NCBI GenBank assembly: GCA_008080815.1
Contig: VMDM01000017.1
Coordinates: 1-34,706, forward strand
DNA from: Candidatus Nitrosopumilus sp.
GTDB taxonomy: Archaea; Thermoproteota; Nitrososphaeria; Nitrososphaerales; Nitrosopumilaceae
Reading direction: 5' to 3'
Length of the DNA stretch: 34,706 nt
This document shows, piece after piece, positions 15,815-26,546 of the stretch (positions are counted from its first letter, which is position 1; every line of letters begins with the position of its first letter). The translations under genes were made by a program, and so were the position numbers. Below the pieces are notes generated by a model. The model searched no databases. It worked only from the letters and a program-made list of their open reading frames with translations, and was not told the DNA's origin.

Positions 15815-15815
15815 T

Positions 15816-15843
15816 GTTAACCTAAAAAATTAAAGTGGTTAAC
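15816..15843. promoter_or_regulatory. BirA-type operator upstream of bioB
   Basis: GTTAACC (15816-15822), a 14-base spacer (15823-15836) and GGTTAAC (15837-15843) form a perfect 7+7 inverted repeat. The known BirA operator is TTGTAAACC-N14-16-GGTTTACAA, so both arms and the spacer fit, and the next gene is a biotin gene. It lies directly after the bioA stop and about 41 bases before the bioB ATG, slightly upstream of the likely TATA element at 15854-15860. Confidence 0.7.
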
Positions 15844-15853
15844 GCTTCCATAT

Positions 15854-15860
15854 CATTATA
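15854..15860 (+). promoter_or_regulatory. Possible TATA element of bioB
   Basis: CATTATA at 15854-15860 sits about 27 bases before the bioB ATG (15885), the spacing of an archaeal TATA box for a leaderless message. The purine run AGGAG at 15861-15865 is 19 bases from the ATG, too far for a normal ribosome site. Confidence 0.35.
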
Positions 15861-15884
15861 AGGAGAAAATAATAACAAAATTAG

Positions 15885-16862
15885 ATGAATGAGCGTGAAT
15901 TAATCGCCCAATGTAAAGAAAAAGTGTTTTCCGGAGAGCAGATTTCTTCTGATGAGGCTCAAAAATTACTCTCAGTATCTGAAGAGAATCTTAAGTTTTT
16001 GGCATTATCTGCCAACGAAATTACACGTGATTTTAATGGTGAAAAAGTAGATGTCGAGCAATTAAACAATATTAAAAAAAATGCATGTAGTGAAGATTGT
16101 ACTTTTTGTGGACAATCTGCATTTTTTGATACTGGAATAGAGACATATCAATTACCATTACCAGAAGAGGTAGTCATCAAAGCTAGAAAAGCTAAAGATG
16201 AAGGTGCAGAGTCATATTGTCTTGTCGCTGCATGGCGTCAACCTTCAGACAATGATTTTAAAAAAGTGTGTAAAATAATTAGCGAAATTAATGAAAAAGT
16301 AGGAATCAGTGTAGAATGTAGTTTAGGATTTCTGACAGTGGAACAAGCTAAAAAATTAAAGGAGTTAAAAGTCAAAAGATATAATCATAATTTAGAAACT
16401 GCAAAATCAAAATTCTCTGAGATTTGTACTACACACACCTATGAAGATCGTTTACAAACATTAAAAATTGCAAGGGATGCAGGACTGGAATTATGTACTG
16501 GTGGAATTATAGGACTAGGTGAAACTAGAGAACAGCGATTGGAATTAATTTTAGAATTGGCCAGATTATTTCCTGAAGAAGTCACCATAAACATTCTTGT
16601 CCCAGTTCCAGGAACACCTCTTGAATTACAAACACCATTAGAAAAATCTGAAATTGTGAGAATGTTTGCCACAATTCGATTCTTACTTCCCGAATCAGTA
16701 ATCAAAATTTCAGGTGGACGTGAAACTCAAATGAACGACAATGGTGAAGAACTATTACTAAGTGGAGCAAATGGAATAATTACTTCAGGTTACTTGACAA
16801 TGGGTGGCAATGAAGCAGAAAAAGATAAACTAATGATTGAGAAAATTGGCCTCAAATCATAA
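15885..16862 (+). CDS. bioB: Biotin synthase
   Basis: A 325-aa radical-SAM enzyme inserting sulfur into dethiobiotin. The 4Fe-4S site is Cys68-x3-Cys72-x2-Cys75 in NACSEDCTFCGQ, exactly the family form. The barrel includes EGAESYCLVAAWRQPS and the C-terminal SGANGIITSGYLTMGG expected of BioB. The length matches the family. Start ATG 15885 (MNERELIAQC). It overlaps bioF by 17-26 bases depending on the bioF start, so bioB-bioF form one unit under the BirA-type box. Confidence 0.93.
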   Translation: MNERELIAQCKEKVFSGEQISSDEAQKLLSVSEENLKFLALSANEITRDFNGEKVDVEQLNNIKKNACSEDCTFCGQSAFFDTGIETYQLPLPEEVVIKARKAKDEGAESYCLVAAWRQPSDNDFKKVCKIISEINEKVGISVECSLGFLTVEQAKKLKELKVKRYNHNLETAKSKFSEICTTHTYEDRLQTLKIARDAGLELCTGGIIGLGETREQRLELILELARLFPEEVTINILVPVPGTPLELQTPLEKSEIVRMFATIRFLLPESVIKISGGRETQMNDNGEELLLSGANGIITSGYLTMGGNEAEKDKLMIEKIGLKS

Positions 16863-23832: not shown

Positions 23833-23943
23833 TTGGCAGAAAGAAAGAATTTTTTGATTATGGCCATAGGGATTGGCGGATTTGGAGTAATTGTAGGAGG
23901 AATAACAATTTGGAATTTAGTTTCAGAAATCATTAATCCTTAA
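23833..23943 (+). CDS. Single-helix membrane microprotein (36 aa)
   Basis: TTG at 23833 opens a 36-aa frame closing at TAA 23943 (MAERKNFLIMAIGIGGFGVI... ending EIINP). A charged AERKN head is followed by one hydrophobic segment (about 8-25) rich in Gly. An internal ATG at 23860 would give 27 aa. It follows the SPOUT gene by eight bases, so it is likely co-transcribed. Ahead of it lies the GGTTAACC box and the uL3 operon. Unknown function. Confidence 0.5.
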   Translation: MAERKNFLIMAIGIGGFGVIVGGITIWNLVSEIINP

Positions 23944-23958
23944 AAAATAGGCACGAAT

Positions 23959-23988
23959 GGTTAACCTAAAAATTTTAACTGGTTAACC
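23959..23988. promoter_or_regulatory. BirA-like palindromic box upstream of the uL3 operon
   Basis: GGTTAACC (23959-23966), a 14-base spacer (23967-23980) and GGTTAACC (23981-23988) make a perfect inverted repeat of two self-palindromic arms. Spacer length and arms are nearly the same as in the bioB box (15816-15843), and the spacer has a similar A/T-rich text. It ends 47 bases before the uL3 ATG. Confidence 0.6.
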
Positions 23989-24001: not shown

Positions 24002-24008
24002 TTTAATA
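24002..24008 (+). promoter_or_regulatory. Possible TATA element of the ribosomal operon
   Basis: TTTAATA at 24002-24008 is about 31 bases before the uL3 ATG (24036). An archaeal start about 25-27 bases downstream would leave a leader of only a few bases. It lies 13 bases after the GGTTAACC box. Confidence 0.3.
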
Positions 24009-24035: not shown

Positions 24036-25031
24036 ATGGGAGCTAGAAAACGTCATCAACCACGTAGAGGAAGTCTTGCATACCTTCCAAGAGGTCGTGC
24101 AAAAAGTATGGAAGCAAGAATTAGAGCTTGGCCAAAACTTAATTCCGAAGAACCAAAGATTTTAGCTCATTGTGGTTTCAAAGCTGGTTGTGTTCAAATT
24201 GTCAGTATTGATGATCGTGAAAAAGTTCCAAATGCAGGAAAGCAATTAGTTAGTTTAGGTACAGTTCTAGTTACACCACCAGTTTTAATTTTAGGTGTAA
24301 GAGGTTATTCAAAAGATCATGATGGTTTACATGCAGAATTTGATGTATATGCACAAGACATTCCAAAATCAATTGCAAAAGAAATTTCACTCAAAAATAA
24401 AAATGAAAACGCATTAGATTCAGCAGAAAAATCTTTGGGAAAAATTAAAGAAATTTTTGCAATTGTTGCAGTATCACCAAGAGATGCAGGTCTTGAACAA
24501 AAGAAACCATATATTTTTGAAGCATCAGTAAGCGGGGGAGATATTACAAAACAATTCAATCACGTAAAAGAATTACTTGGAAAAGAAATCAAAATTGATC
24601 AAATTTTTGAAACAGGTGCCAGTGTTGATGTTGCAGCAATTACTAAAGGTAAAGGATGGCAAAGTGTTATCAAAAGAATGCACGTAAAAAGAAAACAACA
24701 CAAATCAAGAAAAACAGTCAGAGAAGTTGGTTCACTCGGACCTATTTCACCTCAAAGCATCATGTTCACAGTACCAAGAGCAGGTCAAATGGGATTCCAA
24801 CAAAGAATTGAGTACGATAAACGAATTATGGTTATGGGGAATACTGAGGAAAGTAAAATGAAAATCAATCCAGATGGAGGTTACAAACACTTTGGATTAG
24901 TAAAAGGAGATTTCATTATTCTGAAAGGGTCAGTTCCAGGAACTTACAAGAGATTAATCAAATTAAGAAGTCAGATGAGAAATATCCCATCAAAAGTTTC
25001 AAAACCAAATATTTTGGAGGTAGTGATTTGA
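24036..25031 (+). CDS. rpl3: Large subunit ribosomal protein uL3
   Basis: A 331-aa archaeal uL3. The basic N-terminus MGARKRHQPRRGSLAYLPRG and the GKGWQSVIKRMHVKRKQHKS tract (about 205-224) are diagnostic; the latter reaches the peptidyl-transferase region. Length matches archaeal forms (about 330-350). First gene of the operon; its stop overlaps the uL4 start by four bases (TTGA). Confidence 0.96.
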   Translation: MGARKRHQPRRGSLAYLPRGRAKSMEARIRAWPKLNSEEPKILAHCGFKAGCVQIVSIDDREKVPNAGKQLVSLGTVLVTPPVLILGVRGYSKDHDGLHAEFDVYAQDIPKSIAKEISLKNKNENALDSAEKSLGKIKEIFAIVAVSPRDAGLEQKKPYIFEASVSGGDITKQFNHVKELLGKEIKIDQIFETGASVDVAAITKGKGWQSVIKRMHVKRKQHKSRKTVREVGSLGPISPQSIMFTVPRAGQMGFQQRIEYDKRIMVMGNTEESKMKINPDGGYKHFGLVKGDFIILKGSVPGTYKRLIKLRSQMRNIPSKVSKPNILEVVI

Positions 25032-25843
25032 GTAAAGTTTCTGTTCTATCTACAAGCGGTAGTAAAGATGGAGAAATAGAATTACCTCAAGTATTCGCAA
25101 CACCATTTAGAAGAGATTTAATTCATAAAGCATTCACCAATTTGACTTCACATAAATTCCAAAGACAAGGAAGACATCCAACTGCAGGTCAAGATGTAGT
25201 TGCTGATTCTAACTCACCACCAACAGGTCAAGGAGTTGCTCGTGTAGCAAGAGCATTAGGTGGAGGTGGGGGTAGACAAGGACAAGGTGCAGAAGTTGCA
25301 TCAACTAGAGGAGGAAGACAAGCACATCCACCAATTGTAGAAAAAGTCATTTACAAAAAATTAAACAAAAAAGAAAACAAACTTGCATTATGTTCAGCAA
25401 TTGCAGCAACTGCAAATAAGGAGAGAATATTATTCAGAGGACACAAGATTGAAGGAATAGAAACATTCCCAATGATTGTTACTGATGATATTGAAAATAT
25501 ATCCAAAGCAAGTGATATGGAAAAAATCTTAGATTCATTAAAGCTATCACAAGACGTCAAAAGATTAGACGCAAGAAAACCACGTTCTGGACAATCCAGA
25601 TTGAGAGGTAGAAGTAAAAAAGTAGGTAAGAGTGTCTTATTTGTTATCAAAGATGATTCAAAACTATCCAAAGCAGTTGGTGCAATTCCAGGCGTTGAGA
25701 CAAGAAATGCAAAAGATCTTAGTGTTTTAGATCTAGCACCAGGTTCAGAACCAATCAGATTAACAGTATACTCAAAAGGCGCAATCGAAGAAATTGCAAA
25801 AATTAGTTCAACACACTTAGAGGTTATGGCGAAAATACAATGA
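25028..25843 (+). CDS. rpl4: Large subunit ribosomal protein uL4
   Basis: A 271-aa archaeal/eukaryotic-type uL4 (L1e). The Gly-rich loop GVARVARALGGGGGRQGQGA with nearby GGRQAHPP reaches into the exit tunnel wall; DARKPRSGQSRLRGR is the later basic tract. The start is TTG 25028, four-base overlap with uL3. No ATG exists near the N-terminus, so TTG is accepted. Its end overlaps the uL23 ATG by four bases. Confidence 0.95.
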   Translation: MSKVSVLSTSGSKDGEIELPQVFATPFRRDLIHKAFTNLTSHKFQRQGRHPTAGQDVVADSNSPPTGQGVARVARALGGGGGRQGQGAEVASTRGGRQAHPPIVEKVIYKKLNKKENKLALCSAIAATANKERILFRGHKIEGIETFPMIVTDDIENISKASDMEKILDSLKLSQDVKRLDARKPRSGQSRLRGRSKKVGKSVLFVIKDDSKLSKAVGAIPGVETRNAKDLSVLDLAPGSEPIRLTVYSKGAIEEIAKISSTHLEVMAKIQ

Positions 25844-26106
25844 ACGTACAAGAAGCAACCAAGATAATTTTGAAACCATACATTACTGAAAAGACATTTG
25901 CAATGGTTGAGAACGAGAGTAAAATTTGTTTTATTGTTGAAAGATCTGCAAACAAGACAGAAATTGCCGAAGCCGTAAAAACACTTTACAATGAAAAAGT
26001 AACTAACGTAAACACAGCCAGAACCATTTATGGTAAAAAGGCATTTGTTCAGTTCGAAACCACAGACAAAGCCAGAGACTTGGCAACAAAGATAGGAATG
26101 CTCTAA
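25840..26106 (+). CDS. rpl23: Large subunit ribosomal protein uL23
   Basis: An 88-aa uL23 with the family core ILKPYITEKTFAMVE and the ANKTEIAEAVKTLYNEKV helix, plus the VNTARTIYGKKAFV strand. It sits at the tunnel exit and docks chaperones and SRP. ATG 25840 overlaps uL4. In most archaea rpl2 follows; here a 44-base gap leads directly to uS19. Confidence 0.94.
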   Translation: MNVQEATKIILKPYITEKTFAMVENESKICFIVERSANKTEIAEAVKTLYNEKVTNVNTARTIYGKKAFVQFETTDKARDLATKIGML

Positions 26107-26150
26107 TATGGAACACAGAATTCGAGAAATAATTAAAGGAGAAATGAAAC

Positions 26151-26546
26151 ATGGTTAAAGAATTTGAGTATAGAGGAATTCCTAAAGAAGAGTTAGAGGC
26201 AATGTCAATTGAAAAATTATTCCAACTTTTCAATGCAAGACAAAGACGTTCATTAACTAGAGGGATTAACGACGGTAAAAGAAAATTGATCGAAGAGATC
26301 AAAGGAGCAAAGGCTGGAAAAGTTACAACTCCAATTAAAACACATTTGAGAGATTTGATTATTCTACCTTACATGGTAGGAGTTACAGTAAATGTTTTCT
26401 CAGGAAAAGAATTCAGACCAGTTACAATCAGAACTGAAATGATTGGTCATTATTTGGGAGAATATGTCATAACAAACAAGAAGGTATCTCACGGTGCTCC
26501 AGGTGTTGGTGCATCCAGATCAAGCCTTTATGTACCATTAAAGTGA
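26151..26546 (+). CDS. rps19: Small subunit ribosomal protein uS19
   Basis: A 131-aa archaeal uS19 with an N-terminal helical extension (EFEYRGIPKEELEAMSIEKL) and the core RDLIILPYMVGVTVNVFSGKEF. The C-terminal GHYLGEYVITNKKVSHGAPGVGASRSS matches the family. AAAGGAG at 26135-26141 is a well-placed ribosome site for ATG 26151, as expected for a gene not directly coupled to the previous one. The stop overlaps the start region of uL22. Confidence 0.95.
   Translation: MVKEFEYRGIPKEELEAMSIEKLFQLFNARQRRSLTRGINDGKRKLIEEIKGAKAGKVTTPIKTHLRDLIILPYMVGVTVNVFSGKEFRPVTIRTEMIGHYLGEYVITNKKVSHGAPGVGASRSSLYVPLK

Follow-up and report, generated by a model that had tools for sequence, protein, structure and literature searches.

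A conserved BirA-type box precedes the uL3 ribosomal protein operon in Nitrosopumilus and its relatives

The window, i.e. the whole 34,706-nucleotide stretch of Candidatus Nitrosopumilus DNA analysed here, holds a palindromic box before a run of ribosomal protein genes and a second one before a biotin synthase gene; the features concerned are the following.

15815-15844 (core 15816-15843), no strand assigned: BirA-type box upstream of bioB
15856-15863, + strand: putative TATA-like element of the bioB promoter, TTATAAGG, about as far from its box as at rpl3
15885-16862, + strand: bioB, biotin synthase (PF04055, PF06968)
23959-23988 (core 23960-23987), no strand assigned: BirA-type box, palindrome GTTAACC-N14-GGTTAAC, upstream of the uL3 operon
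24002-24008, + strand: putative TATA box of the uL3 promoter, TTTAATA (1.2-2.0 bits at these alignment columns)
24036-25031, + strand: uL3 (rpl3; PF00297), which opens the ribosomal protein run
25028-25843, + strand: uL4 (PF00573), second gene of the run, overlapping uL3

The box before uL3 reads GGTTAACCTAAAAATTTTAACTGGTTAACC, i.e. GGTTAACC-N14-GGTTAACC, and 47 bases separate its end from the uL3 ATG at 24036. These coordinates agree exactly with those of an earlier note made from this sequence, which had also described the downstream genes as ribosomal, as uL3 followed by uL4 indeed are. The bioB box, TGTTAACCTAAAAAATTAAAGTGGTTAACG, divides into TGTTAACC-TAAAAAATTAAAGT-GGTTAACG, and the two boxes have in common the arms GTTAACC/GGTTAAC of 7 bp each; the statement that the arms match thus holds for these 7 bp and for the N14 spacer, and fails for the eighth base, an outer base that is not conserved. 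Searching the window for GTTAACC-N{12-18}-GGTTAAC returns these 2 matches, with 0 in 100 shuffled sequences. The bioB copy (15816) precedes a biotin gene whereas the uL3 copy precedes no biotin synthesis or transport gene; a biotin-gene neighbourhood is a trait of known BirA regulons and not of the binding site itself. Just upstream of the rpl3 box, an unlisted 36-aa ORF with a TTG start (23833-23943, + strand; LAERKNFLIMAIGIGGFGVIVGGITIWNLVSEIINP) appears to encode one transmembrane helix, and it is kept at this place in relatives (MAERKNFLLLAIGIGVIGIIIGGITIWNMVSDLLKP-like). Further downstream at the locus, no uL2 gene is apparent at 26106-26151, between uL23 and the next small-subunit gene, which is where uL2 stands in many archaea.

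The published BirA consensus is TTGTAAACC-[N14/15]-GGTTTACAA (PMC545781, citing Rodionov et al. 2002). Set against TTGTWAACC-N14/15-GGTTWACAA, the rpl3 box in the window agrees at 16 of the 18 defined positions: the inner arms are exact, the spacer is N14 and the T/A pair at -1/+30 agrees, whereas the pair at 0/+29 differs. The bioB boxes of the family carry related arms, in the form GTAAACC-N14-GGTTTAC in the deep genera g6, g9 and g21 (with N14/15 between these arms across the deep genera overall), in a mixed form in g3, g12, g17 and g22, and as GTTAACC/GGTTAAC in g1, g2, g4, g18 and g20; a genome from another family of the same order has TGTAAACC-N14-GGTTTACA before bioB. Since the bioB boxes of the deep genera equal the published BirA consensus, the motif is a BirA-type operator; the sequence of the box, its spacing and the gene beside it all mark it as of BirA type.

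The box is also rare. At up to 2 mismatches in 16 positions, the host assembly (1,066,930 bases, 87% complete) contains only the rpl3 and bioB boxes, with 0 and 2 mismatches respectively; a third match, with 3 mismatches, lies within the TFB coding sequence and was rejected. An exact-pattern scan (N14 or N15) of 30 genomes from five genera finds 36 sites, all of them at bioB or rpl3 (35 by coordinates), and 0 matches to the reversed pattern used as a control in the same genomes; the box in G143:C14 stands directly behind bioA at a contig end, so that it too was counted as a bioB site and rejected as an exact box away from the two promoters. The exact motif is thus confined to bioB and rpl3 and not scattered through the genome, a distinction on which the earlier note had placed weight. 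In a second set of 33 genomes, GTWAACC-N14/15-GGTTWAC is matched in 17, again at bioB or rpl3 only, and the rpl3 matches of this set fall in Nitrosarchaeum-type genomes (g14), the genus names being assigned to such groups by comparing their contigs with the named loci of the uL3 scan; a recurring second Nitrosarchaeum match, GTTAACCGCTGTAGTAAAATTGGTTAAA, lies within an ORF and was rejected. Allowing up to 2 mismatches and N14 or N15 in 1.17 Mb of uL3-scan loci gives 77 matches at uL3, 24 at bioB and 8 elsewhere (7 of these 8 with 2 mismatches), where adjacent spacings of one site may count twice, perhaps for 1 of the 77.

Conservation before rpl3 in close relatives, which had been proposed as a check, is extensive. 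Our scan of genome contigs carrying uL3 covered 80 loci, nearly all from Nitrosopumilus or relatives, and the box is present in 76 of them (Nitrosopumilaceae), always with N14, 45-50 nt before the ATG and with at most 2 mismatches in 14 positions. The four loci lacking it (L106, L108, L109, L112) come from genera that are not in the box-bearing clade of Nitrosopumilus, Nitrosarchaeum and allies, or cluster with such genera. In an alignment of 96 non-identical regions upstream of rpl3, information content reaches 1.9-2.0 bits at 12 of the 14 arm positions and 1.5 and 1.3 bits at the two on the inner edges, as compared with 0.0-1.3 bits in the spacer. Comparison of sequences thus shows a box that is conserved, specific and of BirA type. 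The rpl3 sites conserve the outer T(-1) and A(+30) and use N14 only, whereas the bioB sites use N14 or N15 without outer-base conservation, and the two classes of site therefore differ. On a BioB+uL3 tree of the compared genomes, which are mostly MAG-based, a single change, basal to g1, g4, g13, g14 and g18, accounts for the upstream rpl3 box, and the bioB box requires seven. In deeper genera the box stands at bioB alone, which makes a clade-specific gain at rpl3 the natural reading of this tree, though it has no outgroup root.

Outside the clade, the uL3 promoters of g3, g12, g17, g19 and g22 carry a single GGTTAAC right behind the TATA box (TATAATGGGGTTAACGAC), and the same half-site is GGTTTAC in g6, g8 and g21, three genera with GTAAACC/GGTTTAC-type arms at bioB; within a genome, the A/T variant of the half-site tracks the bioB arm type. 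In these genomes a GGTTWAC half-site after a TATA box occurs almost nowhere but at rpl3, and genera whose biotin ligase lacks the winged helix do not have it. BirA control of uL3 may accordingly be older than the upstream box, with the caution that the half-site is single and that its A/T switch may have occurred just once in the tree. In g17, where a left arm (GTTATCC or similar, N15) accompanies the half-site, the two form a nearly complete box across the TATA box, 18 nt upstream of uL3; these matches overlap the TATA box in a different placement, and we rejected them as the same gain and counted them apart. Upstream regions with the half-site include L209, L225, L235, L239, L216, L238 and L233. 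As a separate observation, one contig end (L345, G002:C38) carries a tyrosine-recombinase-like integrase ORF next to a copy of the ancestral promoter of rpl3, and in the same genome the promoter that precedes rpl3 itself (L211, G002:C23) is altered; perhaps the rpl3 promoter is a site where an element integrates.

The candidate reader of the box is encoded elsewhere in the host assembly.

G000:C26:9364-10365: biotin protein ligase (BirA), 334 aa, with HTH_11 (PF08279, 49.3 bits), BPL_LplA_LipB (PF03099) and BPL_C (PF02237)

It is the one biotin protein ligase in the genome, its winged helix-turn-helix, ligase and C-terminal domains form the group II layout, and 6apw and 6ndl, both BirA/biotin ligase entries, are among its nearest solved structures; the BirA homologue presumed in the earlier note is therefore present, with an intact winged helix. 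The ligases of g5, g7, g11, g15 and G023 have a degenerate N-terminal domain or none, and no box was found at bioB or rpl3 in these genomes. On a tree of 62 genomes, at least one box occurs in 55 of the 56 counted with a winged helix (residue-level inspection covering part of the 56) and in 0 of the 6 without; G016 has the winged helix and no full box. Independent pairs go in the expected direction, but the losses that are independent number only 3-4 (sign test, p 0.25), which makes the association suggestive and not significant. We gave no weight to the covariation of a recognition-helix A/V residue with the operator base A/T, the A form being found in one clade only. The title of a reference cited in PMC6391492 indicates that the BirA N-terminal domain can also be retained for ligase activity.

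Nitrosarchaeum (g14) separates the two sites: the bioB box is absent in every genome examined, and the rpl3 box and the winged helix are kept, with a nearly unchanged recognition helix, SRVAVWK(H/N/D)IKKI. Should DNA binding be the reason why the winged helix is kept there, the only strong site that we find for it is the one at rpl3. Since the bioB site is gone, control of biotin synthesis and of ribosomes need not be linked through shared sites. The proposal that one regulator ties biotin to ribosomes is supported in so far as the box is conserved before rpl3 and the motif confined to the two promoters. The bio loci of this genus (L240-L244 and others) retain bioA, bioB, bioF and an intact BirA despite the loss of the bioB box.

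The placement of the two boxes bears on how they might act. In the rpl3 alignment column 28 is the last of the right arm, and a conserved TTTAATA or TTTATTA begins near column 43 (GGTTTAATAGAGGG or GGTTTATTAGACGG in relatives); at both rpl3 and bioB the distance from the end of the box to the putative TATA box downstream is 13-14 bp. As the rpl3 TATA box lies about 30 nt before the ATG, uL3 transcripts are probably nearly leaderless. The equal geometry predicts the same sign of regulation at both promoters; in the systems studied so far BirA is a repressor of biotin synthesis, which favours repression at rpl3, by hindering TFB/TBP. The opposite sign, with BirA bound to the rpl3 box recruiting TFB/TBP so that biotin sufficiency raises ribosome synthesis, is unlikely, though of the other readings we would take it the most seriously: the centre of the box falls about 57 nt ahead of the presumed start, on the upstream side of the TATA box, a position that is typical of archaeal activators and fits activation as well as repression. 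It would, however, have loaded BirA activating biotin synthesis from the same geometry at bioB, contradicting known BirA systems, and a dimer over about 40 bp would reach the BRE.

It is also conceivable that a regulator other than BirA reads the rpl3 box, perhaps together with the bioB box, the arms being alike by descent of the sites or by convergence. Persistence of the rpl3 box in Nitrosarchaeum without its bioB counterpart would fit such a regulator, as would the differing outer positions and spacing rules of the two site classes; we consider it improbable, however, given that the 7-bp arms and the spacing equal those of the BirA operator at bioB across genera, in another family and in the published consensus, that such a regulator would be expected to have further targets, yet no third target was found in the scanned genomes, and that the recognition helix of Nitrosarchaeum BirA is nearly unchanged with rpl3 as the only box left. 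The single GGTTWAC directly after the TATA box in uL3 promoters outside the clade indicates that such sequence can belong to this promoter, and one might take the box for a structural or core-promoter element of a highly expressed ribosomal promoter, with no specific regulator. There is little to recommend this, since a core element would recur at many promoters, whereas the 28-bp palindrome, whose spacing is fixed and whose arms do not vary, recurs before bioB but at no other promoter of the scanned genomes, as would be expected of a site for a dimeric DNA-binding protein. That the box is a product of chance, or was inherited and has no function, gains something from the kinship of the genomes and is refuted by conservation: the arms have stayed unchanged where the spacer and a large part of the flanking sequence have drifted apart, shuffled sequences give no match, and every exact genome-wide match lies at one of two promoters.

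We therefore regard it as quite probable that the box is an operator for archaeal BirA, recruited once to the uL3 promoter in the ancestor of Nitrosopumilus and Nitrosarchaeum, and that BirA acts there as a repressor relieved by apo carrier protein. For BirA binding, the sign of its effect and the physiological signal, we infer the following course. By analogy with other BirA systems, a dimer of BirA loaded with biotinyl-5'-AMP would occupy the palindrome, and at both bioB and rpl3 it would sit directly upstream of the BRE/TATA, most likely hindering TFB/TBP. Newly made carboxylase carrier protein would consume biotinyl-AMP and take BirA off the DNA, raising biotin and ribosome synthesis together; once biotinylation demand stops, both would fall. 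In known systems, apo carrier protein uses biotinyl-AMP and so keeps BirA from DNA. We found one biotin-attachment protein, with the motif ESMKM, adjoining a biotin carboxylase; the assembly being incomplete, a second biotin acceptor is possible. In Nitrosarchaeum, there is in our judgement an even chance that BirA is a dedicated regulator of the ribosomal-protein operon that senses carboxylase demand, and with it autotrophic carbon flow.

Targets of BirA in S. aureus reportedly serve biotin transport and fatty-acid metabolism. Its extended regulon there (bioO, bioY, yhfS-yhfT; PMC6391492) likewise takes in promoters outside biotin synthesis, and in enterohaemorrhagic E. coli, biotin status read by BirA likewise acts beyond biotin synthesis (PMC4382993); that system reportedly works via Fur, whereas here a BirA-type operator stands at the ribosomal target. 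The rpl3 box is like the BirA operators of bacterial and archaeal biotin operons in its inner arms GTWAACC/GGTTWAC and its spacing (PMC545781), and also in having a winged-helix BirA in the genome and a second copy at bioB; it differs from them in the ribosomal-protein operon downstream and in partly different outer bases and, unlike the bioB copy, it is more strictly conserved and persists where that copy is lost. No ribosomal target of BirA is described in the open-licence papers that we found, nor did we find in the open-licence literature a report tying BirA to ribosomal genes, though earlier mention elsewhere is possible.

How archaea match ribosome output to nutrient supply is poorly known, and the rpl3 box offers a candidate switch that can be named and is conserved, in a lineage that abounds in the ocean and uses a biotin-dependent carboxylase to fix carbon. 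If BirA reads this box, one enzyme would link the state of the carbon-fixing machinery with ribosome synthesis, and our findings suggest that in marine ammonia-oxidising archaea a vitamin-attaching enzyme helps to set ribosome number.
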